Below are positions 21,759 through 43,982 of a stretch of 45,821 bases of DNA, piece after piece. Numbering within the stretch: the first letter of the stretch is position 1; each line of letters starts with the position of its first letter. Origin of the DNA: Candidatus Stackebrandtia excrementipullorum. Lineage in GTDB: Bacteria; Actinomycetota; Actinomycetes; Mycobacteriales; Micromonosporaceae. The notes under the pieces are model-generated. The model saw nothing but the letters and a program-made list of their open reading frames with translations, was not told the DNA's origin and searched no databases. The position numbers were made by a program, and so were the translations under genes. Location of the stretch: assembly GCA_019113825.1 (NCBI GenBank), contig DXGR01000109.1, positions 1 to 45,821 on the forward strand. The letters run 5' to 3'.

Positions 21759-24700
21759 TGCGATCGACCCCTTCGCCCGACTTCGGGCTCTACTTTTTCG
21801 GAAACTATCCACAAGACGTCACCGCGGCCGACACCTACCGGACGCTGTTGGAGGCCGCTCGGTTCGGCGACGAATCCGGGTTCTCGTCGGTGTGGCTGCC
21901 CGAACGTCACTTCCACTCCTTCGGCGGGGTGTTCCCCAACCCGTCGGTCCTGGCCGCGGCCGTCGCCGCCAGGACTCGTAGTATTCGTATCAACGCCGGA
22001 AGCGTCGTGCTTCCGTTGCACGACCCCATTCGAGTCGCCGAAGAGTGGTCGGTCGTCGACAACCTCTCCGGCGGACGTGTGGGCATCGGCGTGGCGTCGG
22101 GATGGAATTCCAATGACTTCGTGTTCTTCCCCGAGCGTTTCGGCGCGCACCGCGATCTGATGTACGAACAGATCGAAGAGGTGCGGCGGCTGTGGCGTGG
22201 TCACAGTCTGTCGAGGACCGGCGGAACGGGACGGCCGGTGGAGGTGTCGTTGTACCCACGGCCGCTGCAACCGGACGTCGACATGTACACCGCGGTGGTG
22301 GGCCGTCGCGAATCGTTCGCTCAGGCCGCACGCGCGAACCTGGGCGTCATCACCAACCTCATGACGCAGGACATCTCCGCGTTGGCCGACAACATCGCCT
22401 ACTACCGTTCCGTGCGGGCACAGTCCGGTCTCGACCCGGCCGGTGGGCGAGTATCCGTGCTGGTCCACACCTACATCCACGAGGACGCTTCGACCGCTCG
22501 CCGGCGGGCGTATGAACCGCTCACCGACTACATGAGAGCATCCCTGTCGTTGTTCGGTCAGGTGACCAACAGCCTCGGTTTCAACATCGACCTCGACAGG
22601 GCCGATGAAGACGATCTGGCGTACCTGTTCTCCCGCGCCTACGACCGATACTGTGATTCGCGGGCCCTCATCGGATCGCCTTCCACGTGTGCGGCCACCG
22701 TTGAGGCTCTTGCCGATGCCGGGGTCGACGAAATCGCCTCACTCGTCGACTTCGGGATGCCGGCCGACCATCTGTTGGAGGGACTGCCTCAGCTGGACAC
22801 GTTGCGTCGCCGCAGTCACGAGGTTCACGTGCATGCCCCGATGACCGACGGCCAACAGACGATGTGGGTCCACGAGCAACTGGTTCCGGGAAACAACGCT
22901 CAGAACGAGCCCAAGGCCGTCCGACTGGTCGGGCACGTCGACATCGCGGCTCTGGATCGAGCCGTGCGGCGGCTCGTCGAGGCCCACCCCGCGTTGCGGA
23001 CCGTCTATCGAGACGTCGACGGCGTCCCCTCACAGGTCCTGCTCCCGGAAATGTCCGTCTCCGTGGAAGTTCACGATCGGACCGGTACCGATGAACTCAC
23101 CGTTGCGTCCGAGACGATCTCCCACGAAAGTCGACGCCGTTTCGACCTGGCGCAGGGGCCCGTCTTCTTCTGTTCACTGCACACCGTTGCCGTCGACCGG
23201 CACATCCTGGTCCTGTCGTTCCATCACATCGCCGTGGACGCGTTGTCGGTAAAGGTTCTGACCAGGCGGTTGTCACAGCTTTACGCGGCCGAATCGTCGG
23301 GGCGGCCCGCCGTGCTGCCGATGCCGTCGCGGCGGCCGTTGTCTATCGACGTCGCACCCGAAAAGGTCGCCCGCGACCTGGCGTACTGGCGTAGTCGGCT
23401 TGCGGGCCCGCTACCGGTCCTGCAACTGCCCACCGACAGGCAGCGCCCATCCCGACAGACGCACCGCGCGCGAGCACGGTTCGTCGAACTCGACGCCGAG
23501 CTGACCTCCGCGATTCGAGCGCTCGGGAACCGCAACGGGGCCACCCTGTTCATGACGTTGTTGACCGGGTTGGCGATCACCTTGCGTCGCTTCACCGGTC
23601 AGGACGATCTCATCGTGGGGGTCCCGGTGTCCCGGCGGAGCCCGGACCAGCAGGACGCCGTGGGGCTTTTGATCAACACGATCCCCCTACGGTTCGACAT
23701 GACGGGCGACCCGACGTTTAGTGAACTGCTCCAGCGCGTTCGCCGGGTCGCGTTGGACGGGTACGACCACGCGTCGGCTCCGTTGGAGGACATCATTGCG
23801 CAGACCGGTGCGCCGCGCGACCCGTCGCGTTCTCCGCTGTATCAGATCACCGCCGAGTTCAAGAACGGTGAGGCGTTCGATCTGGACCTTCCCGGGGTCA
23901 CCGCCGTACCGTTGGACGTCGGTCGCGAGGTCACCGCCTGCGACATCATGATTCACCTGACGCACCGCGACGGCGGTGTCATGGCACACCTGGAGTACAA
24001 CACCGATCTGTTCGACGACGCCACCGTTACACGGCTGGGCGGATACCTACGCCAGACGTTGGAGATCGGCGCGCGAGAACCCGACCGTCGGCTTTCCGCG
24101 TCGTCCGAGTTGATCGAGACCGACAGCCGGTTGCTCGAAAAATGGTCGAACGGGCCCGCCGTGCCGTCGGCGACCGAGACCGTTGTCGAGCAGATCGTCG
24201 GGCATGCGCGGCGGAAACCCGACGCGGTGGCCGTCGGCGACGAAACGGGCCACATCACCTACCGCGACATGGTGGACGACGCTCTGAGGGTCTGTGCAGC
24301 GCTACACGAGCACGGTGTGGCTCCCGGCGACGTCGTCGCCACCTGGCTGCCACGGTCACGTCGCCTTCCGTCGATCCTGCTGGGCATCATGTGGGCACGG
24401 GCGGCTTACCTGCCGTTGGACCCGGCGTTGGGGCCCGCCCGCATCGACAGGGTCCTCACCGACAGCAGGGCACGTATCGTCCTGTCGACGGACCGGCTTC
24501 GCTCAGACCTTCCGCCCTTGAGCGACCTCGTCGTCGTCGACGTCGATACCGTGACCGGTGACGAATCCGTCGTGCCGCCGCCAGAACCGCCACCGGTGTT
24601 GGACGACGCGGCATACGTCATCTACACCTCCGGATCGACCGGCCATCCCAAAGGGATCGTTGCCACACACGGCAACCTCGCGTGGTTGTCGGAGTGGTTC

Positions 24701-27178
24701 GGGCGGCGTTTCGAATTCGACGACCGTGGACGAGCAGCCGCCGTATGCGGACAAAGCTGGGACGTGTCGGTCATGGAGTTGTGGCCGATGCTGGCCGCGG
24801 GAGGCCGCGTGACGATGGCGACCGACGCCGTACGGCGCGACCCGGCGCAACTGTCGCAGTGGCTCACCGACGAAAACCTGGACTTCGCGCTGCTGCCGAC
24901 GCCGTTGGGCCAGGAGGTTTTGGCGCTGCCGAGCAGCCGTCAACCACGAGTCCGGTTCATCATGCTCGGCGGTGATCTCCTGACCGTCCTACCTCGACCG
25001 GATTCACCGTTCGCGCTGGTCAACATCTACGGTCCGGCGGAGACCACGGTCGTGGTCACCACCTACCCGACCACGTCGGGCAGCCCGTCACCGGTGCCAC
25101 TGGGTTCACCGGTCGACGGCGCGCACTTCCGGGTGCTGGACGAAGCCGGCAACCCGACACCCGTCGGAGTACCCGGCGAGCTCTACATCGGTGGCGACTG
25201 TGTCACCCGGGGCTACCTCCACGCGCCTCGGCTGACCGAGGAACGTTTCGTGGTCGACCCCTCGGCTCCGGGCGGCCGACTGTACCGCAGCGGGGACCGG
25301 GTCCGCTGGACCAACGACGGGGTGCTCGAGTTCTGTGGGCGTACGGACGATCAGGTCAAGGTGCGAGGTTATCGGGTCGAGCCGGGTGAGACCGCGGCGA
25401 TTCTTCGGGAGCTGCCCGGTGTGAGCGACGCAGTGGTTCTACCGCGGCGAAACGATCACGGCGACGCCACCCTGGCCGCATACATCGTCGCGACCGGCGA
25501 CACGTCGGGATTGGTGCGGCGTCTCCACGCCGAACTGGCGCACCGGTTGCCGGAATACCTGATACCGGGAGCATGGGCCGTCCTCAACCGTCTGCCCCGC
25601 AATGCGAACGACAAAGTCGAACGTTCGCAGCTGCCGCACGCCAAACCGTTGACGGCCTTCGAACACCGCCCCGACACACCGTCGGCTGCCCCCAACGACG
25701 CGTTGGGATCGCTGTGGATGGAGGTCCTAGATGTCGACGTCCTCGACGAGACGCAGTCCTTCTTCGAGGCCGGGGGCCATTCGATCACGGCGATGCGCCT
25801 GTTGAATCGCGTCCGTGAGGCCCTGGGCATGGAGTTTTCGGTATCGGAGTTCTACCGCGAGCCTACGTTGGCAGCTCTGCGACGCCACCTCACCTCCGAC
25901 GACACGCTGCGCAGTGGCCCGATCTCCTACCAGCAGGTGGGCATGGTCGACGGGCTTACTCGGGCCACCGGCTCCTGGAACATCGTCGTGCATCTGGAAA
26001 TGACCGGCGACCTGGACGTTGCGGCGTTGCAGGCGGCGGCGACGGCCGTGATCGAACGACATGAGTCCCTGCGTACGCGTTTCCACCGCGACGGAACCGA
26101 GTGGGTGCAGGAGGTCCTGTCGCCTCAACCTGTGCCCCTGACTCCGGTTGAGGTCGACGACTACGACGAGCTGAGCAAACGGTTCGCCGAAGAACCGTTC
26201 GACGTCGCCGTGGGGCACCTCGTGCGCTTCCGGTTGTTGAGGCGCGGTCAACGTGAGTGGCGGTTCGTGGTCGTCGTGCACCATGCCGTATGCGACGGCT
26301 GGGGCGTTTCGCTTTTGTTGGCCGACCTTGCCGCCGCGTATCGTGCGGCGCGGCGCGGCGACGACGTCGTGTTGCCCGCTGCGACGCAGAGTATCGACTA
26401 CGCCGTCTGGCAACAACGTCATTGGGATCGGTCGCTTTTCGACGGCCGGCTCGGATACTGGCGCGAGTCCCTCCGCGATCGTCCTCTCACCGTGGCATTG
26501 CCCGCCACCGGGGACCCGGCGGACGTGCCGGCGGCGTTTGTTCGCCGGGAGGTCCCCGACGGGTTGTCCGGCGACGTCGATCGGCTCGCGGCGAAGCTCG
26601 GCTGCACCCCGTTCGCCGTCTGGGCGGCCGCGTTGGGAATCGTTCTTTCCCGACGAACCGACCAGCTGCGATTGACGTTGGGCACCCCGTACGCCGGCCG
26701 TGAACATCCCGACCACGACACCGTCATGGCCGTGTTGGCCATGGTCTCGCTGCTGCGCATCGACATCGATCCGGCCGTCGGTTTCGGCCGGTTGGCCGTC
26801 GATGTCCTGTCGGATTATGCGGCGACCGTGGACAATTTCGTTCCGTTGCGTCGCATTCTCGACGATGTGAAGGAACACCGCGACGACGTGCCCGCGGTGA
26901 TGCCGGTCAGTTTCCTCTACCAAAGTTCGATGACCCTCGACCTCGAATGGCCTGATCTGGATGTCGTCGTGGACGAACGGACGTCGGGTGCACCGCGGCG
27001 ACGTACGTCGTTCTTTGTCGAACCGGGCACGAAACGGCACCGGTTCGGGGTTATAGCCGACGGATCGCTTCACGAACCATCGACCTTGGGCGACTGGCTG
27101 TCGGAGTGGCTGGACGTCTTGTCGGCCGGTGTCTCGGATCCCGACACGCCCGTGGCCGATCTTCTGACGCGAGAATGA
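21755..27178 (+). CDS. Nonribosomal peptide synthetase: LLM-C-A-T-C
   Basis: 1807 residues. Residues 1-350 are a luciferase-like monooxygenase domain of the kind built into PKS/NRPS proteins (SSVWLPERHFHSFGG). Condensation domain 1 (about 360-790) has HHIAVD at 490-495. The adenylation domain (about 815-1290) has YTSGSTGHPKG at 957-967, NIYGPAETT, GELYIGG, YRSGDRVRW and the A10 lysine at 1287. The carrier domain has Ser1343 in GGHSITAM. Condensation domain 2 (about 1375-1800) has HHAVCDGW from 1509. The protein ends there, with no thioesterase or reductase. By manual alignment the ten-residue code reads D-V-M-L-I-L-I-V-V-K, closest to proline codes. The ATG overlaps the PKS stop. A hairpin follows the gene. 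Confidence 0.92.
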   Translation: MMRSTPSPDFGLYFFGNYPQDVTAADTYRTLLEAARFGDESGFSSVWLPERHFHSFGGVFPNPSVLAAAVAARTRSIRINAGSVVLPLHDPIRVAEEWSVVDNLSGGRVGIGVASGWNSNDFVFFPERFGAHRDLMYEQIEEVRRLWRGHSLSRTGGTGRPVEVSLYPRPLQPDVDMYTAVVGRRESFAQAARANLGVITNLMTQDISALADNIAYYRSVRAQSGLDPAGGRVSVLVHTYIHEDASTARRRAYEPLTDYMRASLSLFGQVTNSLGFNIDLDRADEDDLAYLFSRAYDRYCDSRALIGSPSTCAATVEALADAGVDEIASLVDFGMPADHLLEGLPQLDTLRRRSHEVHVHAPMTDGQQTMWVHEQLVPGNNAQNEPKAVRLVGHVDIAALDRAVRRLVEAHPALRTVYRDVDGVPSQVLLPEMSVSVEVHDRTGTDELTVASETISHESRRRFDLAQGPVFFCSLHTVAVDRHILVLSFHHIAVDALSVKVLTRRLSQLYAAESSGRPAVLPMPSRRPLSIDVAPEKVARDLAYWRSRLAGPLPVLQLPTDRQRPSRQTHRARARFVELDAELTSAIRALGNRNGATLFMTLLTGLAITLRRFTGQDDLIVGVPVSRRSPDQQDAVGLLINTIPLRFDMTGDPTFSELLQRVRRVALDGYDHASAPLEDIIAQTGAPRDPSRSPLYQITAEFKNGEAFDLDLPGVTAVPLDVGREVTACDIMIHLTHRDGGVMAHLEYNTDLFDDATVTRLGGYLRQTLEIGAREPDRRLSASSELIETDSRLLEKWSNGPAVPSATETVVEQIVGHARRKPDAVAVGDETGHITYRDMVDDALRVCAALHEHGVAPGDVVATWLPRSRRLPSILLGIMWARAAYLPLDPALGPARIDRVLTDSRARIVLSTDRLRSDLPPLSDLVVVDVDTVTGDESVVPPPEPPPVLDDAAYVIYTSGSTGHPKGIVATHGNLAWLSEWFGRRFEFDDRGRAAAVCGQSWDVSVMELWPMLAAGGRVTMATDAVRRDPAQLSQWLTDENLDFALLPTPLGQEVLALPSSRQPRVRFIMLGGDLLTVLPRPDSPFALVNIYGPAETTVVVTTYPTTSGSPSPVPLGSPVDGAHFRVLDEAGNPTPVGVPGELYIGGDCVTRGYLHAPRLTEERFVVDPSAPGGRLYRSGDRVRWTNDGVLEFCGRTDDQVKVRGYRVEPGETAAILRELPGVSDAVVLPRRNDHGDATLAAYIVATGDTSGLVRRLHAELAHRLPEYLIPGAWAVLNRLPRNANDKVERSQLPHAKPLTAFEHRPDTPSAAPNDALGSLWMEVLDVDVLDETQSFFEAGGHSITAMRLLNRVREALGMEFSVSEFYREPTLAALRRHLTSDDTLRSGPISYQQVGMVDGLTRATGSWNIVVHLEMTGDLDVAALQAAATAVIERHESLRTRFHRDGTEWVQEVLSPQPVPLTPVEVDDYDELSKRFAEEPFDVAVGHLVRFRLLRRGQREWRFVVVVHHAVCDGWGVSLLLADLAAAYRAARRGDDVVLPAATQSIDYAVWQQRHWDRSLFDGRLGYWRESLRDRPLTVALPATGDPADVPAAFVRREVPDGLSGDVDRLAAKLGCTPFAVWAAALGIVLSRRTDQLRLTLGTPYAGREHPDHDTVMAVLAMVSLLRIDIDPAVGFGRLAVDVLSDYAATVDNFVPLRRILDDVKEHRDDVPAVMPVSFLYQSSMTLDLEWPDLDVVVDERTSGAPRRRTSFFVEPGTKRHRFGVIADGSLHEPSTLGDWLSEWLDVLSAGVSDPDTPVADLLTRE

Positions 27179-27182
27179 GGTC

Positions 27183-27212
27183 GGTGTGGACGGTCCGTGG
27201 GCCGTCCACACC
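27183..27212 (+). terminator. Hairpin terminator after the NRPS gene
   Basis: A perfect 11-bp stem (GGTGTGGACGG with CCGTCCACACC) and an 8-base loop, starting 4 bases after the NRPS stop. It suggests the exporter-PKS-NRPS operon ends here and tyrA has its own promoter in the 67 bases that follow. Confidence 0.75.
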
Positions 27213-27279
27213 GGCTGGGCATGGGTGGCGTCCGGTCGGCTTGGTATACATGTGACCGGGCGGCGGACGAGGAGAGACG

Positions 27280-28269
27280 ATGCGGGTCGGGGCATTGAGA
27301 TACGGCGTGGTGGGTGCCGGTTTGATCGGGGGCTCGTTGCTGCGTCGACTGGCCGACACCGGCGTGGATCTCGTTGGTTGGGACCCCGACCCCGCAGTCG
27401 CGACACTCGCGAGGGCGCACCGGATACGGTTCGTCGACGATCTCGTCCGAGCTGTCGCCGATCGTGACGTCGTCTTTTTGGCGACCCCCCTGTCGACCCT
27501 TGAGCCGGTGTTGGACCGGATCGCCGCCCATGTGGCACCGGGAGCCCTCGTGACCGACGTCGGCTCCACCAAGAGCGGTGTCGCCGCAGCGGCGGCGTCC
27601 TCGGAACTTGCCGACAGGTTCATACCCGGCCACCCCATGGCAGGTAGCGAAAAATCGGGGTTCGCGGCCGCGGACTCCCACCTGTTTGACGGGGCGACCT
27701 GGGTGCTGTGCCCCGATCCGGCGATGCCGTTGCCGACGGTTCGTACGTTGATCACGATCATTACAACGATTTTCGATGCCCATGTCACCGTCATGAGCCC
27801 CGAACGTCACGACGAGGTCGTGGCGTTGTCGTCTCACGTGCCGCATCTGCTGGCCGGGGCCCTAGCGGGCTCGGTGGAGCGGGGGGGCTTCGAGGATGCG
27901 GTGCTCGGTTTGGCCGCCGGCAGCTTTCGCGACGGGACCCGGGTGGCGGGTACACGCCCCGACCGGACCGTCGACATGCTGATGAACAACGCCGACGCAG
28001 TGGTGCGACGGTTGGCGGAGGTGCAAAACCTTCTGAACTACCTGGCAACGGCGGTCGCCGATCGGAACCGCGACGAGCTGGTCGCCTGTTTTTCCCAGGC
28101 GCAACGCGTACGGATACGCCTGACCGATCAGGGGCGGCCCCAGGTTGTTCGCCGATTCCGTCAAGGCCACGGGGAACGGGAGTTTCTGGCCACGACGGGC
28201 GAGCAGGGTGTCGCCGTCACCGGCTGCACGGCCGACGGCGACGACACCGTCTACTCCATATCGGGGTGA
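27280..28269 (+). CDS. tyrA: Prephenate dehydrogenase (TyrA type)
   Basis: 329 residues. The N-terminal Rossmann domain has VGAGLIGGSLL. TDVGSTKSGV, HPMAGSEKSGF and a helical C-terminal dimerisation domain (SSHVPHLLAGALAG) identify the TyrA family, which converts prephenate (or arogenate) to 4-hydroxyphenylpyruvate (or tyrosine). No fused chorismate mutase is present. It could be the housekeeping tyrosine gene, or a precursor-supply gene for the adjacent NRPS; the sequence does not decide. GGAGAG precedes the ATG. Confidence 0.9.
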   Translation: MRVGALRYGVVGAGLIGGSLLRRLADTGVDLVGWDPDPAVATLARAHRIRFVDDLVRAVADRDVVFLATPLSTLEPVLDRIAAHVAPGALVTDVGSTKSGVAAAAASSELADRFIPGHPMAGSEKSGFAAADSHLFDGATWVLCPDPAMPLPTVRTLITIITTIFDAHVTVMSPERHDEVVALSSHVPHLLAGALAGSVERGGFEDAVLGLAAGSFRDGTRVAGTRPDRTVDMLMNNADAVVRRLAEVQNLLNYLATAVADRNRDELVACFSQAQRVRIRLTDQGRPQVVRRFRQGHGEREFLATTGEQGVAVTGCTADGDDTVYSISG

Positions 28270-33916: not shown

Positions 33917-33996
33917 GTTCCTCCTTTATAGCGTCGGACATTGTGCCACCGCGCGAAATTCTGGCATCGGCACCTCCAAAAAGGCGCACTTTTCTC

Positions 33997-34014
33997 TTAC
34001 TGACTTGTCAGTAA
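33997..34014. promoter_or_regulatory. TetR operator upstream of the GH64 gene
   Basis: TTACTGACTTGTCAGTAA is an 18-bp palindrome with perfect 8-bp halves and a 2-base centre. The first six bases (TTACTG) can act as a -35 with a TATTGT -10 at 34021-34026 (18-base spacing). The same geometry is seen at the GH3 operator. Binding here would block the promoter of the glucanase gene. Confidence 0.8.
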
Positions 34015-34110
34015 GCATGTTATTGTGACTTCCGTCGCATGGCTCTTGCGCAGCACCTGCGGGCAATGCCATCGATATCTCTGCATTTTTAGATCCAATT
34101 GGAGGTCTGG

Positions 34111-35319
34111 ATGATTTCTAGACGCACGCTTCTCGCCTCCGCCTCCCTCGGAGCCGTCACCGCGCCGCTGTGGCTCCCCGGCACAGCCATCGGCCGGCGA
34201 ACGGCCGAGTCCCCCGAAACCTGCGAACTCGCGCTCGAAAACCGCGGCTCGGGGACACTCAACGCCTACGTCACGGGGCGCGAATTCGGCACCGACAAGT
34301 GGGTACTTCTGAGGGCCGACTCGAGCCTCTACCACCTCGAAGAGCCCGCCGCACCCGAGACACCCCTGCCAGTCGACTGCGCCATCCCCGTGAACGAATC
34401 GACCGTTCTCACCCTGCCGCGAATGTACGGCGCTCGGGTGTACTTCGTTCACGAGGACACTCTGGACTTCTTCGTCAATCCGGGGCCGTCTTTGGTCGAA
34501 CCGGCCTTCGCCCATCCCGAGGATCCCAATTACTCCAAGGTCTGGTCGTTCTGCGAATTCACCTTTAACGACTTCCAGCTCTTCGTCAACATCTCCTACG
34601 TCGACCTGGTAACCGCGCTGCCGATCGGGCTGACACTGGTGGGTGACGACACTCACACCGTGGCGGAGCTACCCGACGGTGCAGTCGATCGCATCGCCGA
34701 CGAGCTCGCCGCCCAGGCCGACCGCGACGGACAACCGTGGAACGACCTGGTACTCCGCGACGCGGGTGGCTCGGTACTGCGAGCCGTGTCCCCACAGTCC
34801 GTCATGGCCCCATACTTCGACCGTCCCGACGAAATGCCATTCCGCGATCACTGGAACACCTACATCGACCAGACCTGGTCGAAGTATCGCGACACGGACC
34901 TGCTCGTGGACAACCAAGGCGGGCGCGGCGTCTTCACAGGGCGCGTCGTCGACGACGTCTTGACCTTCGAAGGTGGCCATACCTTCGTCAAACCGGAGTC
35001 GCGCGACATCTTCACCTGCGATCACGGCCCGTTCACCAACAATCCCGACGATCCGGACGACAAGAAGGGCATCCTCGCCCGACTTGCGGCGGCATTCAAT
35101 CGCAGCACCATATTGGATGTCTCCGAGCAACCCAACGGAGCGACCGCCGCCGATTACTACCAGCACTCCGATACCAACCACTGGGCGCGCGCCGTCCATG
35201 AACATTCGCCGATCGGGTACGCGTTCCCCTACGACGACGTTCGCCCGGACGGACAACCCGACGAGTCGGGCGCCGCCCACGACGAGAACCCACAACGCCT
35301 GACCATTCACGCAGGCTGA
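34111..35319 (+). CDS. GH64 endo-beta-1,3-glucanase, Tat-exported
   Basis: 402 residues. The N-terminus MISRRTLLASASLGAVTAPLWLPG is a twin-arginine signal peptide. The mature part matches glycoside hydrolase family 64: GARVYFVHEDTLDFFVNPGPSLVEP, WSFCEFTFN, FVNISYVDLVTALPIGLTL, DNQGGRGVFTGRV and FTCDHGPF. The family cuts beta-1,3-glucans such as laminarin or fungal wall glucan, typically releasing laminaripentaose. ATG 34111 is preceded by GGAGG five bases away. A TetR operator lies upstream, linking it to the GH3 and transporter genes. Confidence 0.88.
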   Translation: MISRRTLLASASLGAVTAPLWLPGTAIGRRTAESPETCELALENRGSGTLNAYVTGREFGTDKWVLLRADSSLYHLEEPAAPETPLPVDCAIPVNESTVLTLPRMYGARVYFVHEDTLDFFVNPGPSLVEPAFAHPEDPNYSKVWSFCEFTFNDFQLFVNISYVDLVTALPIGLTLVGDDTHTVAELPDGAVDRIADELAAQADRDGQPWNDLVLRDAGGSVLRAVSPQSVMAPYFDRPDEMPFRDHWNTYIDQTWSKYRDTDLLVDNQGGRGVFTGRVVDDVLTFEGGHTFVKPESRDIFTCDHGPFTNNPDDPDDKKGILARLAAAFNRSTILDVSEQPNGATAADYYQHSDTNHWARAVHEHSPIGYAFPYDDVRPDGQPDESGAAHDENPQRLTIHAG

Positions 35320-35324
35320 CGCGC

Positions 35325-35353
35325 GGTGGGGGCGAGACGAGCTCGCCCCCACC
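35325..35353 (+). terminator. Hairpin terminator after the GH64 gene
   Basis: A perfect 12-bp stem (GGTGGGGGCGAG with its complement) and a 5-base loop, 5 bases after the stop. The glucanase is therefore a single-gene transcript and the GH3 operon starts anew. Confidence 0.8.
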
Positions 35354-35502
35354 ATCCCCTTCGCAACACCACGGGCTTGACACACGTATGGGGTACGTCA
35401 CAAACTGACCGAGGCGATATTTGTAAAGTTTAAATACTTAACGACTCGTCGCACCCCCAACGACAGCCCTCCCCCCCCCAAGAACAAATCGGAACTTTGG
35501 AC

Positions 35503-35520
35503 TTACTAACCCGTCAGTAA
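35503..35520. promoter_or_regulatory. TetR operator upstream of the GH3-transporter operon
   Basis: TTACTAACCCGTCAGTAA matches the GH64 operator with one change in the left half and a different 2-base centre. A -10 TAGGAT lies at 35527-35532, exactly the same distance (24 bases from operator start) as TATTGT at the GH64 promoter. The shared geometry supports co-regulation. Confidence 0.8.
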
Positions 35521-35582
35521 GTTTGCTAGGATCGGCGAAATTCTGTGACGCGCACAACTTCTTACCCCGCCCAGGAGGCCGC

Positions 35583-38033
35583 GTGAGCACGTCCCACACC
35601 AGCCCCGTCCCCGGCCCCTCGTCCGACCGGCCGCTGTCACCGTCACTCACTCTTCACGACAAGGTCCGAGTCCTGACCGGCTCAGGCCCCTGGACTCTTC
35701 ACCCGTTGCCTCAGGTCGGGCTACGTTCCATCGTCGTCAGCGACGGACCCGCCGGCGTTCGTGGAACCACCGACTCCCCCACCGAAACCGGCGCCTCCTT
35801 TCCCTCCCCCACCGCGTTGGCCGCCACCTGGGACACCGACCTCGCCCGGCGCCTTGGGCACCTGTTCGCCGCCGAAGCCCGACGCCACGGCGTCGACGTC
35901 GTCCTGGCACCGGTCGTCAATCTGCAACGCACGCCTGTCGGGGGACGCCATTTCGAATGCCTGTCCGAAGACCCTCTACTGTCCTCACACGTAGCCTGCG
36001 CCGTGGTTTCGTCCATGCAAGAGCACGGAGTCGCCGCCTGCATCAAACACTTCGTCGCCAACGATTCCGAAACCGCTCGGACCGAATACGTCGCCCACAT
36101 CGACGAACGCGCACTACGTGAGGTGTACCTTGCCCCTTTCGAGGCCCTCGTCAAGGACAGCGGAGCCTGGACCCTCATGGCCGCCTACAACGGACTGGAC
36201 CTGAACGGGGAGGTCGCGAGCGCCACGGACCACCACGGCCTGCTGACGCGGCTTCTGAAAGAGGAATGGGGGTTCGACGGAGTCGTCATCAGCGACTGGA
36301 CGGCCGCCAATACGACCGCGACGTCGGCAAACGCCGGTCTGGACGTCGTCATGCCGGGCCCCGGCGGACCATGGGAAGACGCCCTGTGTCAAGCCGTGAT
36401 CGACGGCGACGTAGCCGAATCCACCATCGACGACAAGGTCCGACGCATCCTCCGTCTGGGGCAACGCGTCGGTGCCCTCGAACCTGCGACCCCGGTAGAG
36501 GTGAAGCCGGTCGACACCGGCGATCTCCTCCGCGAAGTCGGCGCGCGATCCACAGTAGTCCTCAAGGACGACCGGGGGCTGATCCCCCAAGCCCCCGGCA
36601 CCATCGAACGCCTCGCCCTCATCGGCCCCAACGCCGTCGACACGTTCTTCCAGGGTGGCGGTAGCGCCCACGTCAACCCCGACTATGTCGTCACTCCGTT
36701 CGAAGCTCTCACCAGGGCGCTCCCCCAGGCCGAGATCACCGTTCACCGCGGCGGCTACGCCCGACCTCACGAGCCCGACATCGAACCGAGCCTCCTGGCC
36801 GAAGACGGCGCCGTGGTCGACCTCTACGACGACGCCGACAACATCATCGAGTCACGTCCGCTCCCGGCCGACGGGTGGCTCCGAGGCATTGACGCGAAGG
36901 TTCACCTGGCACGACTTCGCGCCACGGTCCGCCTGGACGAAGTCGGCGACCATTGGCTCGGCATCGGTACCGTCGGTCGGTTCGACGTCCATCTCGACGC
37001 CGCATCGGTTGCCCGCGGTGAACACTTCGCAGGCCATGACGTGGTACTGAACTCCAGCGTCAACGCTCCCCCGTCGCACGGAGGGCACGTCACCGTCACG
37101 GAACCGCGAAACGTCGAGGTCAACGCCGATCTCCAGATCATCGAAGCCTGGGGCCACGGTCGTTTCGCGCGGGCCGTCCTGCGCCACCGTGGACCCGACG
37201 CCACGGTGTCCGAAGAGATTGGAGCAGCCGAAACCGCCGCTCGTAACGCCGATATCGCCGTCGTCGTCGTGGGAACCAACAGCGAGGTCGAATCCGAGGG
37301 CTTCGACCGCACCGACCTTGAACTACCGGGAAACCAAAACGAGCTGGTGCGACGCGTTTACGCAGCCAATCCGAACACCATCGTCGTGGTCAACGCCGGA
37401 GCGCCCGTCGTACTGCCGTGGCTGGAGCAGGTCAGCACGGTCATGTGGGTGTGGTTCCCGGGGCAGGAGTGCGGCAACATTATCGCCGACTCCCTGTTCG
37501 GACATACCGAACCGTCGGGGAGGCTGCCGTGGACGCTGCCCGCCTCCTACGAAGACGTTCCCGTACCGCACGCCGTCCCGGAAGACGGCATCGTGACCTA
37601 CCACGAAGGCATCCACATCGGATACCGCGCGTATCTGCGTGACGGCATCACGCCGGCCGCACCGTTCGGTCACGGATTGGGTTGGACCCGGTGGGAATAC
37701 GGCTCGGCACGGGTCACCGTCTCCGACGACGACCCCTCGGTATCGGTCACGGTCGAAAACACCGGCCTGCGGCGCGGGTACGAAACCATTCAGGCCTATC
37801 TCGAATACTTCGGCGACGGCCCGCCCCGTCCACGGCGTTGGCTGGCCGGGTTCGCCACCGTCGCTGCCGAACCCGGCGGCACGGCCGTCGGTGTCATCAC
37901 GTTGACACGACGCACGTTCCAGGTCTGGGATCCGGATACGTCCGCATGGGTCACGCCCCCCGGCACGTACACACTCCATATCGGTCGATCCATCACCGAC
38001 ATTCGGATCTCCGTCCCCGTCCCCACTCCATAA
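35583..38033 (+). CDS. GH3 beta-glucosidase, cytoplasmic
   Basis: 816 residues and no signal peptide. The (beta/alpha)8 domain carries the nucleophile Asp238 in GVVISDW, with KHFVANDSETAR and the GGRHFECLSEDPLL substrate loop. The alpha/beta sandwich follows, with a PA14-like insert at about 420-540, and a C-terminal fibronectin III-like domain. It hydrolyses terminal beta-glucosyl units; the operon suggests imported beta-1,3-gluco-oligosaccharides. GTG 35583 has AGGAGG four bases upstream, which decides it against an upstream in-frame start at 35523. The lipoprotein gene follows after 35 bases. Confidence 0.92.
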   Translation: MSTSHTSPVPGPSSDRPLSPSLTLHDKVRVLTGSGPWTLHPLPQVGLRSIVVSDGPAGVRGTTDSPTETGASFPSPTALAATWDTDLARRLGHLFAAEARRHGVDVVLAPVVNLQRTPVGGRHFECLSEDPLLSSHVACAVVSSMQEHGVAACIKHFVANDSETARTEYVAHIDERALREVYLAPFEALVKDSGAWTLMAAYNGLDLNGEVASATDHHGLLTRLLKEEWGFDGVVISDWTAANTTATSANAGLDVVMPGPGGPWEDALCQAVIDGDVAESTIDDKVRRILRLGQRVGALEPATPVEVKPVDTGDLLREVGARSTVVLKDDRGLIPQAPGTIERLALIGPNAVDTFFQGGGSAHVNPDYVVTPFEALTRALPQAEITVHRGGYARPHEPDIEPSLLAEDGAVVDLYDDADNIIESRPLPADGWLRGIDAKVHLARLRATVRLDEVGDHWLGIGTVGRFDVHLDAASVARGEHFAGHDVVLNSSVNAPPSHGGHVTVTEPRNVEVNADLQIIEAWGHGRFARAVLRHRGPDATVSEEIGAAETAARNADIAVVVVGTNSEVESEGFDRTDLELPGNQNELVRRVYAANPNTIVVVNAGAPVVLPWLEQVSTVMWVWFPGQECGNIIADSLFGHTEPSGRLPWTLPASYEDVPVPHAVPEDGIVTYHEGIHIGYRAYLRDGITPAAPFGHGLGWTRWEYGSARVTVSDDDPSVSVTVENTGLRRGYETIQAYLEYFGDGPPRPRRWLAGFATVAAEPGGTAVGVITLTRRTFQVWDPDTSAWVTPPGTYTLHIGRSITDIRISVPVPTP

Positions 38034-38068
38034 AACTCCCAACAGCGCTCCGGTCAAGGAGACCACCG

Positions 38069-39712
38069 ATGAAACGACGCACGATCTTCAAGATGATGGG
38101 TGGCGCCGGCGCCGTCACCCTGCTGGCGGCTTGCGGTGGCGGCACCGGCACCGCCGCCCGCATACTGACCGTCGGGCTGCCCAACGGGGCCTTGACGGAA
38201 AACCACAACCCCTTCATGCCCGATTCCGCGGCCAACAAACTCGGGTACCGTTGGCTTGTTTACGAACCGTTGGCGCAGGTCAACATGATCGCACCGGACA
38301 CCGAGCCGACGCCCTGGCTCGCCACCGAGTGGGCCTGGGCCGAGGACTTCACCGCGGTCGACCTGACGATCCGCGAGGGTGCCGCATGGACCGACGGTAA
38401 TCCACTCACACCCGACGACGTCGCCTTCACGTTCAATCTGATGCGAGACGACACCGCTTTGAACGGTGAAGCACTACCGTTCGTCGACGCCACCGTCTCC
38501 GGAAACGTCGTCACCGTCACCTTCGAATCGTCACAGTTCATCAACCAGGGCAAAGTCCTGTCGACCATGGTGCTGCCCAAGCACATCTGGACCACCATGG
38601 ACGATCCGTCGACCGACATCAACCTCGACCCCGTCGGCAGCGGACCTTACAAGCTAAAAAGTTGGACGACGCAAGTCGTCACCGTCGAACCCAACGAGCA
38701 GTACTGGGGCGGCACACCTGAAATCCCCGAAATCCGTTTCACCTCATATAACGACAACAACGCGCAAACGACCGCTCTGGTCAACGGAGAATGCCAGTGG
38801 TCGTACGTGTTCATCCCCGATTACGAGAAGATTTTCATCGACAAGGACCCGCAACATCATCATCTGTGGTTCCCGTCGGGCCTGGGCATTCACGCACTGT
38901 GGATCAACCACACTCGTCAGCCGTTCGACGACGTCGCGTTCAGGCGGGCCGTGAACCTCGCCATCGACCGAGTCGTCGTCCACGAGATCGGCGAGTCCGG
39001 ACTGTATCCGTTGGTCGACAGTCTCACCGGGATCCCGCGTCCCGCCGGCGATACGTTCATCGCACCCGAATATCGGGATGCGGTGCACGCCGTCGACCTC
39101 GACGAAGCGCGTCGACTGCTTGAGGAGGCCGACTTCACCTGGGATTCCTCGGGCAACCTTATTGCGCCCGACGAGCAACCGGTCACCATGGTCCTGTGCG
39201 CCCCGGCCGGCTGGTCCGATTACCTCGCCTCCCTGGCCATCATCGCCGACAACCTAAAGGCGCTGGGTATCCAGGCCGAGGTGGACGCGCTCGAACCGGA
39301 CGTCTGGTTCGACGCGATCGCCGTCGGTGACTTCGACGCGATGCTTCATTGGACGGCCACCGGGGTGACGCCCTACGAGATCTTCGCCAACTGCATGGAC
39401 AAGGCCTACTACAAGGAGATCGGCGACAACGCCACCTGGAACTTCGGACGGTTCGACAGCGACGAGGCCACTCGGGCGCTGCGCGACTACGCCGAAGCCA
39501 CCGACGACGAAACACGTGACGAGACCATGGCAACCCTGCAACGCATCATGGTCGAGGAAGTACCGATCGTGCCGCTGGTCGCCGGTCCCATCGGCGCCGA
39601 GTTCTCCACCAAACACTGGGTCGGCTGGCCCACCGAGGACGACCCCTACGCCATGCCGCAACCGACCCAACCCAGCATCTCGCAGGTCGTGATGCGTCTT
39701 AAACCGGCCTAA
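38069..39712 (+). CDS. ABC transporter solute-binding lipoprotein (SBP family 5)
   Basis: 547 residues. A basic start and hydrophobic segment end in the lipobox LLAAC at about residue 21. The SBP_bac_5 body shows AWTDGNPLTPDDVAFTFNLM, DPVGSGPYKLKSW, HALWINHTRQPFDDVAFRRAVNLAIDR and DEARRLLEEA. The family normally binds peptides, but members in other organisms bind cello- or laminari-oligosaccharides. Placement after the GH3 gene suggests a beta-glucan oligosaccharide here. AAGGAG precedes the ATG. A hairpin after the stop may raise its level relative to the permeases. Confidence 0.9.
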   Translation: MKRRTIFKMMGGAGAVTLLAACGGGTGTAARILTVGLPNGALTENHNPFMPDSAANKLGYRWLVYEPLAQVNMIAPDTEPTPWLATEWAWAEDFTAVDLTIREGAAWTDGNPLTPDDVAFTFNLMRDDTALNGEALPFVDATVSGNVVTVTFESSQFINQGKVLSTMVLPKHIWTTMDDPSTDINLDPVGSGPYKLKSWTTQVVTVEPNEQYWGGTPEIPEIRFTSYNDNNAQTTALVNGECQWSYVFIPDYEKIFIDKDPQHHHLWFPSGLGIHALWINHTRQPFDDVAFRRAVNLAIDRVVVHEIGESGLYPLVDSLTGIPRPAGDTFIAPEYRDAVHAVDLDEARRLLEEADFTWDSSGNLIAPDEQPVTMVLCAPAGWSDYLASLAIIADNLKALGIQAEVDALEPDVWFDAIAVGDFDAMLHWTATGVTPYEIFANCMDKAYYKEIGDNATWNFGRFDSDEATRALRDYAEATDDETRDETMATLQRIMVEEVPIVPLVAGPIGAEFSTKHWVGWPTEDDPYAMPQPTQPSISQVVMRLKPA

Positions 39713-39719
39713 CGGCAGC

Positions 39720-39749
39720 CCGTGCGGCCCCCGTGCGAGGGCCGCACGG
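39720..39749 (+). terminator. Intercistronic hairpin after the binding-protein gene
   Basis: A perfect 11-bp stem (CCGTGCGGCCC with GGGCCGCACGG) and an 8-base loop, between the binding protein and the rest of the transporter. Such hairpins commonly stabilise the upstream mRNA or partly terminate, giving more binding protein than membrane complex. Confidence 0.75.
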
Positions 39750-39796
39750 ATCAGCTTCGGGACTTGCAGCTCAACCGACGGGTAGGTACGAAAATC

Positions 39797-40810
39797 ATGG
39801 CGACCATCCGGACAGCGCCGGCCTCCACCGATGAGGAGGCCGTTTTGTCGGCGCGTTCACTCAGCAAACACTTCCGCCTTCATCGTGGCCGACGGAGATT
39901 TCTTCACGCCGTTGACGATGTCGACATCGACCTGTTTAAGGGCAGGGTTGTCGCACTGGTCGGCGAATCGGGGTCAGGAAAGTCCACTGTGGCCAGACTG
40001 CTGGCGCAGCTACACCCCGCAACGTCCGGAGAGATCCGACTGCACGGGGAGCCGATCGCGGTGAAAGGGGGCCGAAAGCTACGCGCCTACGTCAAACGGG
40101 TGCAGTTGATACTTCAGGACCCGTTCGCCTCCCTCAACCCCGTCCATCGGGTGCGTTACGTGTTGACGCGGTCTCTCAAGATCCACCATCCCGGTATCGG
40201 TGGTGGCGAACTGGAACGATCGCTGGCGGAATTGCTGGAGAAGGTTCACCTCCAACCGAATCGCCATCTCGACAAGTTTCCATACGAGCTGTCCGGTGGC
40301 CAACGCCAACGCGTATCGATCGCGCGGGCTTTGGGCGCCGATCCCGAAGTGCTGTTGGCCGACGAACCCGTGTCCATGCTGGACGTATCGATCCGTTTGG
40401 GTGTCCTTAATCTACTGACCGAACTCACCAACGACCTGGACCTTGCCGTCCTCTACATCACCCACGACATCGCCTCGGCACGTTACTTCGCCGACGAAAC
40501 GGCCGTCATGTACGCGGGTCGGATCGTTGAACGCGGTGATTCCGAAACGGTGACACAGGACCCCGCGCATCCGTACACCCGGTTGTTGATCGCCTCGGCA
40601 CCAGACCCGGACGCCCTGGGCCACCACAACGCGACCACCGACGCCAAAGGGGACCCGCCCAGCCTGATCAACCCGCCTCCCGGTTGCCGCTTCGCGACAC
40701 GTTGCCCTCGGGTCATGCCCCGATGCACGACGGAGTCACCCCCCACCTTCACCACCCCGCAGTCGGGACGCAGCGTGGCCTGCTGGCTGTATGGAGAGGC
40801 AGACCAATGA
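39797..40810 (+). CDS. ABC transporter ATPase (OppF/DppF type)
   Basis: 337 residues. Walker A GESGSGKS, signature [15 protein letters not shown], Walker [13 protein letters not shown] and the switch His in YITHD are all intact. The C-terminal Cys-containing oligopeptide-transporter extension ([20 protein letters not shown]) marks the OppF/DppF family. One of two ATPases energising this importer. ATG 39797 follows a weak GGTAGG; the frame extends upstream without better starts. The stop overlaps the next gene. Confidence 0.93.
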
Positions 40811-41787
40811 AATACCTGCTGCGTCGAGGCGCTTTTTACCTCATCACGGCGTGGGCCGCCATCACCCTCAACTTCTTCATCCCGCGCATGCTGCCGGGAG
40901 ATCCCGTTCGATCACTGATCAACCGTTTTCAAGGCCGTATCAGTGTCGAGGCCACCGAATCGTTGTACGTGCTGTTCGGGCTGGACGAGGAAAAATCCCT
41001 GTGGCGTCAATACACCGACTACTGGGCCAACCTGTTCGCCGGTGACCTTGGCCTGTCATTCGCCTACTTCCCCACGCCCGTATCGGATGTGATCGCCCAG
41101 AGCCTCCCGTGGACGCTGATCCTCGTGGGGATTTCCACGATCCTCAGTTTCGTGCTCGGCACGATGATCGGCATCTGGGTGGGCTGGCGACGCGGGACCT
41201 GGGCCGACGGTCTGCTCCCCGTCGCCAACTTCTTCTCCGCCATTCCGTACTTCTGGATCGGTCTCATCGCCATCGCCGTATTCGCCGTGGCATGGCCGAT
41301 CTTCCCCGCCTCCGGCGGTTTCGACGGCGGGCTCATTCCGGCGGCCGACCCGGAGTTCATCGCCTCGGCCGTCTACCACGGCGTTCTTCCCGCGTTGACG
41401 ATCGTTATCTCGTCCATGGCCGGCTGGATCCTCGGCATGCGCAACATGATGGTGACCGTGTCTTCAGAGGATTACGTCACCGTGGCCCATGCCAAGGGAC
41501 TGCCCGAACGAAAGGTCATGATCGGCTACGCCGCCCGCAACGCGATCCTTCCCAACGTCTCCGGCTTCGCGCTGGCGCTCGGTTTCATCGTCGGAGGAAC
41601 GCTCGTCACCGAGATGGTCTTCACCTACCCGGGAATCGGTTACATGCTGTTTCAGGCCATCGGAGCGAAGGACTACCCGTTGATGCAGGGGTTCTTTCTC
41701 ATCATCACGCTCTCGGTACTGGTCGCGAACATGCTCGCCGACATCGCCTACGCCGTCCTCGACCCACGCACCCGCCAGGAGGCCTGA
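40807..41787 (+). CDS. ABC transporter permease (DppB type)
   Basis: 326 residues with about six membrane helices. The N-terminus ([30 protein letters not shown]) is diagnostic for DppB/OppB permeases. The EAA loop reads [32 protein letters not shown] 40807 overlaps the stop of the ATPase gene by four bases, which sets the start. Confidence 0.93.
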
Positions 41788-41792
41788 TCTCC

Positions 41793-42812
41793 ATGGTCGC
41801 CGCAACCGGTACCCCTATCACCTCCACCGAAGAACCGCCGAACGTCCCGCACAAACACCGTCGTGGATTTCTGAGGGGCCTGACCTTCCTTCGGAACCGC
41901 AAGACCGTCGTGGGACTGGCCATGCTCGCGTTCTTCGTAGTCCTGGCGCTCGTCGGCGACGTCATCGCCCCTTACGATCCGTCGGCGACGTCAACCGTCG
42001 GGCTCCAAAGTCCCAACGCCGATCACCTGCTGGGCACCACGTCTTTGGGCCAAGACATTCTCTCCCAGATACTCGTGGGTACCCGCGGCGTCCTCTGGGT
42101 CGCGTTTCTAGCCGGCATCGTGGCCACGGTCCTCTCGGTGGTCGTCGGTGTGACCGCGGGCTTTCTCGGCGGGATCGGTGACGAGTTCCTTTCCCTGCTG
42201 TCGAACATATTCCTGGTCATTCCGGCTCTACCGCTGATCATCATCGTTACCGGCCTGCTGCCAAGCGCCGGTGGCGTCACCATCGCCTTGATCATCGCGT
42301 TCACGGGTTGGGCGTGGGGCTCACGCGTACTGCGAGCCCAGACGTTGTCACTACGCAAAAGGGACTTTGTGGAAGCTGCGCGAGCCAACGGGGAGTCGAC
42401 GTGGCGCATCGTCTTCTTCGAAATTCTTCCCAACCTGACCGCCATCATTGCGTCCGGTTTCATCGGCACCGTCATCTTCGCCATGCTGTCCGAAATCACC
42501 TTGGCCTTCATCGGAGTCACCAGTATCAGCGACTGGAACTGGGGGACCATCCTGTTCTGGGCGCAGAGCAACCAGGCATTGGCGATGGGGGCATGGTGGT
42601 GGTTTGTCCCGGCCGGACTGTGTATCGCGGCCGTGGGCACAGCACTGACGTTGATCAATTTCGGCATCGACGAATTTGTGAACCCACGGTTGCGAACCAC
42701 CGGACAAAACGCCAAAACCCTTCGTGCCAAACGCATTCGTGCTCGAGTCGGATTCACACCGGTTTATCGCGGCGGCACCACGACGCATGACGACGTCAAG
42801 GAGAACGCATGA
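41793..42812 (+). CDS. ABC transporter permease (DppC type)
   Basis: 339 residues. After a 40-residue cytoplasmic start it has about six membrane helices, with the DppC motifs HLLGTTSLGQDILSQILVGTRG and the EAA loop KRDFVEAARANGESTWRIVFFEILPN. ATG 41793 lies 5 bases after the previous stop. The stop overlaps the next ATPase gene. Confidence 0.93.
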   Translation: MVAATGTPITSTEEPPNVPHKHRRGFLRGLTFLRNRKTVVGLAMLAFFVVLALVGDVIAPYDPSATSTVGLQSPNADHLLGTTSLGQDILSQILVGTRGVLWVAFLAGIVATVLSVVVGVTAGFLGGIGDEFLSLLSNIFLVIPALPLIIIVTGLLPSAGGVTIALIIAFTGWAWGSRVLRAQTLSLRKRDFVEAARANGESTWRIVFFEILPNLTAIIASGFIGTVIFAMLSEITLAFIGVTSISDWNWGTILFWAQSNQALAMGAWWWFVPAGLCIAAVGTALTLINFGIDEFVNPRLRTTGQNAKTLRAKRIRARVGFTPVYRGGTTTHDDVKENA

Positions 42813-43858
42813 GACCCACCAACGACGACCGTCCGGTGCTCGAGATCCGGGATCTCAGTGTCGCCTACGGCTACGACGACGACGCGGTACACGCACTCCG
42901 CCATGTAAACCTGACATTGCACGCCGGTGAGGTTCTCGGCCTGGCCGGCGAAAGCGGATGCGGCAAATCGACGTTGGCGTACGCGGCCACCCGGCTTCTA
43001 CCGCCTCCAGGGCTGATCACCTCCGGCGAGGTCGTATTCACCAGTACACGCGACAACCGAAAATTCGATCTGTTGAGCGCCGACGACCGGCAACTGCGTC
43101 GATCACGGTGGACGGACACGGCGATCGTGTTCCAGGGCGCCATGAACTCGTTGAACCCGGTTCACCGTGTCGGGCGGCAGATGACCGATGTGATCGCGGC
43201 CCATCGCCCCGGCCCGGCCGCCCTACGCACCGAACGCGCGGCCGAACTATTGGATCTGGTGGGTATCCCACCGGACCGAATGCGCAGTTACCCCCATCAG
43301 CTGTCGGGCGGTATGCGACAACGGGTCATGATCGCCATGGCCCTGGCTCTGGAACCACAGATAGTGATCATGGACGAGCCCACCACTGCCTTGGACGTGG
43401 TCATGCAACGTCAGATCGTCGAACAACTCATGGAACTTCGAACCCGACTGGGCTTTTCGGTCATTTTCATTACGCACGACGTCTCGTTGCTTATCGAACT
43501 GGCCGATCGCATCGCGATCATGTACGCCGGTCAGATCGTTGAAGACGCCTCTGCACGGGAGGTCTACAGGGCTCCGCGTCATCCGTACACGGCCGACCTG
43601 CTGCATTCGTTCCCACCGCTTCACGGGCCACGGCGGACTTTGGGAGGTATCGGTGGGACACCTCCGGATCTGGTGGCGCTGCCACCGGGATGTTCGTTCG
43701 AGCCTCGCTGTCGGCACGCCTTCGATCGGTGCGCGCGCGAGGTGCCGACTTTGACCCCCACGGCTGTGGGCGAGAGCGAGTCGCACCGCCGCGTCGCATG
43801 CTTTCAACACTGCCGTGAGATCACGAATATTCCCGAATCACTTCGACGCACCGTCTGA
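42809..43858 (+). CDS. ABC transporter ATPase (OppD/DppD type)
   Basis: 349 residues. Walker A GESGCGKS, signature [15 protein letters not shown], Walker [13 protein letters not shown], and the OppD-type extension ending in [18 protein letters not shown]. It is the second ATPase of the importer and the last gene of the GH3-transporter operon. The tetR gene starts about 125 bases later with its own operator. Confidence 0.93.
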
Positions 43859-43940
43859 GGCCGTCGGAGTCAGAGGTTCCCACTCGGGTTGCCGTGCCCG
43901 GCGCCCGTTGGCGTCGAAAGCATGTTCGCCTGCCGTATAC

Positions 43941-43958
43941 TTACTGACAGTTCAGTAA
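43941..43958. promoter_or_regulatory. TetR operator upstream of tetR (autoregulation)
   Basis: TTACTGACAGTTCAGTAA is the third copy of the operator, with one change in the right half. A good -10 TATACT at 43936-43941 overlaps its left edge, so the operator would sit over the start point of the tetR transcript. This implies autoregulation. Confidence 0.78.
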
Positions 43959-43982
43959 GCAAACGCCGACGTTGGGTGCCCT

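Follow-up and report, generated by a model that had tools for sequence, protein, structure and literature searches.

Bioinformatic analysis of the window, a stretch of 45,821 bases that makes up the entire contig C94 of the 4.17-Mb, 149-contig assembly (G000) of Candidatus Stackebrandtia excrementipullorum, suggested that one of its gene clusters is very probably a beta-1,3-glucan utilisation regulon. The cluster encodes a glycoside hydrolase family 64 (GH64) beta-1,3-glucanase, a GH3 beta-glucosidase, an Opp-type ATP-binding cassette (ABC) transporter with a family-5 solute-binding protein (SBP5) and a TetR-family regulator, and the regulon would be governed by this single TetR acting as a repressor that is released by laminari-oligosaccharides. 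Beta-1,3-glucan is the sugar polymer of fungal walls and of algal laminarin. A preliminary description had proposed a three-operator TetR regulon for the use of this polymer; the regulon is well supported by comparative genomics, but the operator count was wrong, as at least four operators were located, the additional one at a GH16 gene.

A search of the window identified copies of a 20-bp palindrome, CTTACTGACNNGTCAGTAAG, upstream of the GH64 gene, of the GH3/Opp-type transporter operon and of tetR (Table 1). Its 18-bp form, TTACTGACNNGTCAGTAA, gave three matches with up to three mismatches, at 33997 (no mismatch), 35503 (one mismatch; TTACTAACCCGTCAGTAA) and 43941 (one mismatch; TTACTGACAGTTCAGTAA), exactly where three near-identical palindromes had been described, and compared to a mean of 0.07 matches in dinucleotide shuffles of the window, none of 100 of which reached three. 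The three palindromes (O1, O2 and O3) all lengthen to 20 bp (C...G), of which only O1 is perfectly palindromic outside the spacer. A scoring matrix was trained on 15 sites from five related genomes (G004, G007, G026, G046 and G066), with none from the host genome, and with exclusion of sites of G004, G014 and G021 that have more mismatches or a different context, of the sites at weak GH16 matches (L208 and L210) and of the G046 sites at small secreted proteins (L058 and L059). When applied to the window and the fetched stretches, the next-best score in the window after O1-O3 was 5.6 bits, and the peak scores in three random Markov sequences of 4.17 Mb each were 12.7, 19.7 and 13.7 bits.

Across the 4.17-Mb genome, the 18-bp form was matched at six places when three mismatches were allowed: the three in the window, one on contig C20 and a tandem pair on contig C101. 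The C20 site (G000:C20:10079-10098; two mismatches; 27.9 bits) is located 55 bp upstream of a GH16 laminarinase gene and constitutes the fourth operator. The convincing sites of the genome are these four, all at glucan genes or tetR, and the many unrelated sites that the preliminary description had named as a sign of a generic box were not observed in the genome-wide search. The tandem sites on C101 (L005/L006; three mismatches each) were rejected as regulon members given their MarR-like/YceI-like context and their scores of 5.9 and 3.4 bits. The palindromes of this pair are identical, TTGTTGACACGTCAGCAA, and lie at a spacing of 30 bp (L005 1500-1550), flanked by open reading frames recognised by eye as MarR-like and YceI-like; they are probably operators of a separate regulator.

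Both the motif and the gene order are conserved in relatives. Among 101 genomes of the family, host included, eight encode a TetR with at least 53% identity, and the 20-bp motif (up to two mismatches) is present in seven of these eight compared to 3 of the 93 others (Fisher p 5e-8), with a reversed control pattern present in 5 of the 101. The cluster GH3-SBP5-ATPase-permease-permease-ATPase-TetR recurs in G066, G004, G046, G026 and G007, preceded by GH64 in G066 and G004, and by GH64 and then GH16 in G046. All five GH64 genes of the cluster-bearing genomes carry the operator (up to three mismatches), as do five of the six strong GH16 genes, including unlinked ones in G066, G004, G026 and G007; the sixth, in G046, lies directly behind GH64 and therefore probably shares a promoter with it. 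In G014, tetR adjoins what is left of the second ATPase gene, and a three-mismatch operator lies between the two (L065 9518-10497), suggesting apparent decay of a glucan operon. No TetR match at E <= 1e-15, motif, GH64 or GH16 was found in G083, which belongs to the same genus as the host.

A wider scan of 84,980 species genomes, with an alignment of eight TetRs as query, gave 536 relatives, of which the best 80 were used (L073, L075 and L078 being the same genomes as G066, G026 and G007); counts out of 80 below refer to these loci, which come from Cellulomonas, Microbacterium, Demequina, Cellulosimicrobium, Oerskovia, Nocardioides, Blastococcus and other genera. In the 420 bp preceding the TetR match, a site with up to three mismatches is present in 34/80 loci and one with up to five in 72/80, compared to 0/80 and 1/80, respectively, for a reversed consensus; the degenerate form CTTACAATCAAGTAAGTAAC is present in eight loci, and near variants in others. 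In 25 genomes chosen from these 80 loci the motif (up to two mismatches) was present in 24, with 38 sites in total, a rate biased by selection, as the genomes were mostly picked for a site already in the locus. Unlinked sites played no part in this choice. There were eleven of these, all fetched, in ten genomes of Cellulomonas and allies; nine of the eleven sites precede genes for GH55 (six) or exo-beta-1,3/1,6-glucosidase GH3 (three) proteins, and one further precedes an SBP5 gene. The six GH55-type proteins are secreted and mutually similar, and the two that were searched match 4pew (E 1e-133 and 8e-178), the structure of the exo-beta-1,3-glucosidase SacteLam55A (PMC10637969). The three GH3 proteins exceed the cut-off of NF052331, the model for exo-beta-1,3/1,6-glucosidase. 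Thus, unrelated enzyme families acting on beta-1,3-glucan bear one operator across genera. At L181 and L182, the site falls inside the longest reading frame, yet by eye it is upstream of the signal-peptide start.

The operators occupy different positions relative to promoter-like elements. In the host and five relatives, TGnTAnnnT begins exactly two bases past the operator in 10 of 11 GH64/GH3 promoters, a count made without a shuffled control, with the G026 GH64 gene as the sole exception. Since the extended -10 element starts two bases after it, the operator would cover the -35/spacer region at these genes, which fits repression as judged from predicted promoters. In each of the five strong GH16 genes that carry an operator of their own, TAnnnT (GATACAGT or GATACCGT) is found 16-21 nt upstream of the operator, which is therefore probably near or after the transcription start. 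Such varied placement, over the -35/spacer, downstream of the -10 or near a start codon, would be suited to a repressor. By eye, O3 overlaps a possible -10, TATACT, at 43936-43941. In four Cellulomonas loci (L083, L090, L141 and L143), the region between tetR and the divergent GH3 gene contains two operators, 55-67 bp apart and upstream of tetR, each possibly serving one of the promoters.

It is improbable that the glucan genes are activated, or dually regulated, by TetR. Some TetR proteins do activate, and at GH64 and GH3 the operator is near the -35 position, but occupancy of the -35/spacer at these genes, of a place past the likely -10 at GH16 and of one beside the tetR start codon is what a blocking repressor would display. 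Still less credible is the explanation that the palindrome is a generic TetR box serving another TetR protein, with the neighbouring tetR being incidental. Palindromes of this general shape are common among TetR-protein sites and the tandem three-mismatch pair between the MarR-like and YceI-like frames could be taken as an instance; against this, the motif co-occurs with this particular TetR (7/8 versus 3/93 genomes) and precedes it in the wider set far more often than the reversed control. On the sequence evidence the motif is not a generic TetR box, because the four sites in the genome stand at glucan genes or tetR and the C101 pair scores low.

More serious, although still unlikely, is the proposal that TetR binds these operators but that its signal and core task concern beta-glucosides generally, such as cellobiose, gentiobiose or plant glucosides, with the glucanases recruited later in some lineages. 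The constant partners of the TetR genes are GH3 (74/80 loci) and SBP5 (71/80) rather than glucanases (GH16 in 2/80, GH64 in 1/80), and the GH3 partner itself varies, with 43-67% identity to that of the window in Cellulomonas-type loci versus about 28-36% in Microbacterium-type loci; therefore the partner enzyme is not one orthologue. In addition, a relative in G021 sits at a different sugar transporter, and the bifidobacterial regulator BgrT was assigned to beta-glucosides and beta-galactosides (PMC4746261). However, the further convincing operator of the host genome is at a beta-1,3-glucanase gene, and sites elsewhere stand at GH55 in six other genomes and at the GH3 exo-1,3/1,6-glucosidase in three others. 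Furthermore, S. nassauensis retains a LacI-type CelR operon with a putative cellobiose transporter (PMC3377646).

Several observations nevertheless weigh against so simple a repressor regulon. The extended -10 at fixed offset was not seen at the 21 other sites listed in the comparison (GH16, tetR, GH55, second GH3 and SBP5), nor at Cellulomonas-type TetR loci. Weak GH16 matches of the cluster genomes lack a site in five of seven cases (G066 L203 and L207; G026 L204; G046 L205 and L211), the two with a site being G066 L210 and G046 L208. G046 and G007 lack the tetR operator (8-9 mismatches at best), which means that not every such tetR is autoregulated. In G046, two of the four sites with up to two mismatches precede small secreted proteins of unknown role (L058 6887-6906 and L059 6130-6149) in which no Pfam matches were found; the copy at L058 has a CelR-like site with one mismatch (2825802) at a distance of 84 bp, which hints at dual control. 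The operator of G021 (L064 10202-10221), whose TetR is 53% identical, lies between a CUT1-type (SBP_bac_1) transporter and a xylose-isomerase-like gene, with none at the four GH16 matches of this genome; the clade is therefore not strictly for beta-1,3-glucan, and from its gene context the same switch is apparently wired to another sugar in G021. The GH64 pieces of G021 sit at a contig end, where their promoter is beyond the reach of the assembled sequence. Among the 25 Cellulomonas-type genomes, 14 have a site at the TetR locus only and one has none anywhere, and in these genomes beta-1,3 specificity is at most putative. Finally, a one-mismatch site in G122 (L180 4727-4746) has no adjacent glucan gene, its neighbours being genes for a small secreted protein and a tetrahydrodipicolinate-succinyltransferase-like protein.

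It was proposed that, in the absence of substrate, a TetR dimer would occupy the 20-bp operators and keep four transcription units low, covering the -35/spacer of the extended -10 promoters at GH64 and the GH3-transporter operon, binding immediately past the likely -10 of the unlinked GH16 gene, and binding close to the start codon at tetR. Basal or foreign glucanase activity would free laminari-oligosaccharides for import by the lipoprotein/Opp-type ABC transporter, whereupon a short beta-1,3-gluco-oligosaccharide would bind TetR and the operators would be released. The secreted GH64 and GH16 enzymes would then cut the polymer, the transporter would take up the products, and the cytoplasmic GH3 enzyme would convert them to glucose, thereby removing the inducer and closing the loop. 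The inducer is probably a short laminari-oligosaccharide, which is the logical candidate because GH64/GH16 would produce it, the Opp-type system would import it and GH3 would destroy it.

Domain searches confirmed the gene contents ascribed to the cluster, namely GH64, GH3, SBP_bac_5, two permeases, two ATPases and TetR. The GH64 protein matches the structures 7vtl (4.4e-177) and 3gd0 (2.9e-36), the latter a laminaripentaose-producing enzyme. No signal peptide was seen by eye in the GH3 protein, whose best NCBIfam model, NF052330, gave 1050 bits, under its cut-off of 1300. The solved relatives of the binding protein include chitin-oligosaccharide and mannoside binding proteins, but many peptide/nickel binders too, so that a carbohydrate cargo for the transporter is plausible rather than firmly indicated. 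TetR is the single match in the host genome at E <= 1e-15, and its AlphaFold2 model is all-helical (pLDDT 91.4). The 50 Foldseek matches listed for this model were all general TetR folds (TM 0.44-0.66 by query), whose ligands include drugs, steroids and acyl-CoA among others, and they carry no information on the TetR ligand. The enzyme encoded on C20 is a secreted GH16 protein (PF00722, E 1.2e-28) with 3atg and 2hyk (glucanase/beta-1,3-glucanase) as its best solved relatives. At E <= 0.001, GH64 and GH16 each gave a single match in the host genome, and both genes have an operator. No GH55 match was obtained in this genome at E <= 1e-20 (GH81 and GH128 were not searched), and its remaining GH3-type matches (C115, C35 and C142) were not among the genome-wide operator matches.

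Table 1 Operators, predicted promoter elements and genes of the putative beta-1,3-glucan cluster (window positions).
Feature	Position	Strand	Remarks
Operator O1, CTTACTGACTTGTCAGTAAG	33996..34015	.	perfect outside 2-nt spacer; 95 bp 5' of GH64 start codon; 35.6 bits
Extended -10 of GH64 promoter (predicted), TGTTATTGT	34018..34026	+	2 nt after O1
GH64 beta-1,3-glucanase, 402 aa	34111..35319	+	PF16483, E 2.6e-113; twin-arginine-like signal peptide by eye
Operator O2, CTTACTAACCCGTCAGTAAG	35502..35521	.	61 bp 5' of GH3 start codon; 30.8 bits
Extended -10 of GH3-transporter operon (predicted), TGCTAGGAT	35524..35532	+	2 nt after O2
GH3 beta-glucosidase, 816 aa	35583..38033	+	GH3 N- and C-terminal domains and Fn3-like; predicted intracellular
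Family-5 (Opp-type) solute-binding lipoprotein (SBP_bac_5), 547 aa	38069..39712	+	PF00496, 3e-63; signal peptide by eye
Opp-type ABC ATPase 1	39797..40810	+	Pfam domain match
Opp-type permease (OppB-like)	40807..41787	+	Pfam domain match
Opp-type permease (OppC-like)	41793..42812	+	Pfam domain match
Opp-type ABC ATPase 2	42809..43858	+	Pfam domain match
Operator O3, CTTACTGACAGTTCAGTAAG	43940..43959	.	23 bp 5' of tetR start codon; 29.9 bits
TetR-family regulator, 229 aa	43983..44672	+	PF00440 (TetR_N), E 2.7e-14; PF13977 (TetR_C_6)

The system was compared with known regulators of glucoside and glucan use. BgrT is a TetR group for which a 2016 analysis of ten bifidobacterial genomes predicted control of beta-glucoside and beta-galactoside use, exerted at palindromes of 18-22 nt; its genes lie beside those for beta-glucosidases and sugar transporters, it has homologues in other Actinobacteria lineages, and it forms a single branch in the published TetR tree (PMC4746261). 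The window TetR can be likened to BgrT by three of these features: it is a TetR-family DNA-binding protein by domain (PF00440, E 2.7e-14), all-helical model and TetR-family structures as best folds, it is encoded with a beta-glucoside hydrolase and genes of a transporter whose sugar cargo is presumed, and a palindrome of 18-22 nt precedes its predicted target genes. Unlike the described BgrT regulons, which are local sets for beta-glucosides/beta-galactosides with MFS or ABC transporters (PMC4746261), the host regulon has secreted GH64 and GH16 enzymes (elsewhere GH55), an Opp-type importer with SBP family 5 and unlinked operators. This earlier prediction, together with the constancy of GH3 and SBP5 beside the TetR genes, makes the description of a TetR switch as unusual too strong.

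The contrast drawn with LacI-type regulators of cellobiose use stands. In actinobacteria, S. nassauensis among them, LacI-type CelR is a predicted regulator of putative cellobiose transporters and, in several species, of cellulases (PMC3377646). The CelR/CebR systems resemble the host locus in combining secreted hydrolases, an oligosaccharide ABC importer and an intracellular beta-glucosidase under one sugar-sensing repressor with palindromic sites, but serve cellulose through a LacI-family protein and the site TGGGAGCGCTCCCA (PMC3377646), whereas the host regulator carries TetR_N and TetR_C_6 rather than LacI domains and has another site. No TGGGAGCGCTCCCA sites were found 5' of the operon; the single site with up to one mismatch in the host genome is on C114, not in the window, and the control also gave one. 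The mixed-linkage glucan locus of Blautia, a Gram-positive polysaccharide utilisation locus (gpPUL), likewise unites a regulator, a polysaccharide-degrading enzyme and an ABC transporter, and uses a GH94 phosphorylase (PMC10318527). The host cluster also brings regulator, polysaccharide-degrading enzyme and putative carbohydrate transport system together in one locus, but with a GH3 hydrolase, an Opp-type transporter, a TetR regulator and a partly unlinked regulon. Among the titles and abstracts listed by searches of the open-licence literature, none named a TetR protein as regulator of genes for laminarin or beta-1,3-glucan use, secreted beta-1,3-glucanases included. What appears new here is that TetR control extends to a regulon spread over several loci, in which secreted beta-1,3-glucanases are combined with an Opp-type importer; the observation is stronger than first described, but less singular.

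Control of beta-glucosidase loci by TetR proteins seems to be widespread in actinobacteria, judging from the GH3 genes found beside TetR in paralogues and in a class-wide sample. A paralogous TetR set in the family (36-48% identity) has a GH3 neighbour in 10 of 22 loci (flanks up to 1.5 kb), and some of the paralogues beside GH3 carry a drifted palindrome, CCTACCGANNNNTCGGTAGG, exact in L021 and L027 and near in L031 and L035, suggesting operator drift inside one TetR-GH3 family. In the class-wide sample, a TetR match at E <= 1e-30 was present in 66 of 296 genomes, with GH3 in 18 of 29 short loci fetched.

If the proposed regulon is real, many actinobacteria would have a named switch for degrading beta-1,3-glucan, a 20-bp motif would be ready for target finding in any genome, and a polysaccharide regulon with secreted depolymerases would be placed under the TetR family, which is better known for drug and lipid responses. 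Whether TetR proteins sense sugars could then be tested directly, as one protein, one DNA site and a handful of oligosaccharides would be enough. A bolder claim, for which we see nearly as much in favour as against, with doubt slightly prevailing, is that the orthologous TetR of several actinobacterial orders is an unrecognised master switch of beta-1,3-glucan catabolism that directly senses imported laminari-oligosaccharide, and that its reach includes the yeast-wall-lysing enzymes known from Cellulosimicrobium/Oerskovia-type bacteria. Should it hold, this TetR would be a sugar sensor in command of a polysaccharide regulon spread over several loci.

Elsewhere in the window, positions 18648-28269 (+) encode a beta-ketoacyl-synthase/acyl carrier protein (ACP) protein (18648-21758), followed by an 1807-aa luciferase-like monooxygenase-condensation-adenylation-peptidyl carrier protein (PCP) protein (21755-27178) and a prephenate-dehydrogenase-like gene (27280-28269, +), which together look like a small hybrid polyketide synthase/nonribosomal peptide synthetase (PKS/NRPS) cluster. 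At the start of the contig (45-2812, +), an AAA_25 ATPase and a phage-type integrase are encoded, perhaps at the edge of an integrated mobile element.

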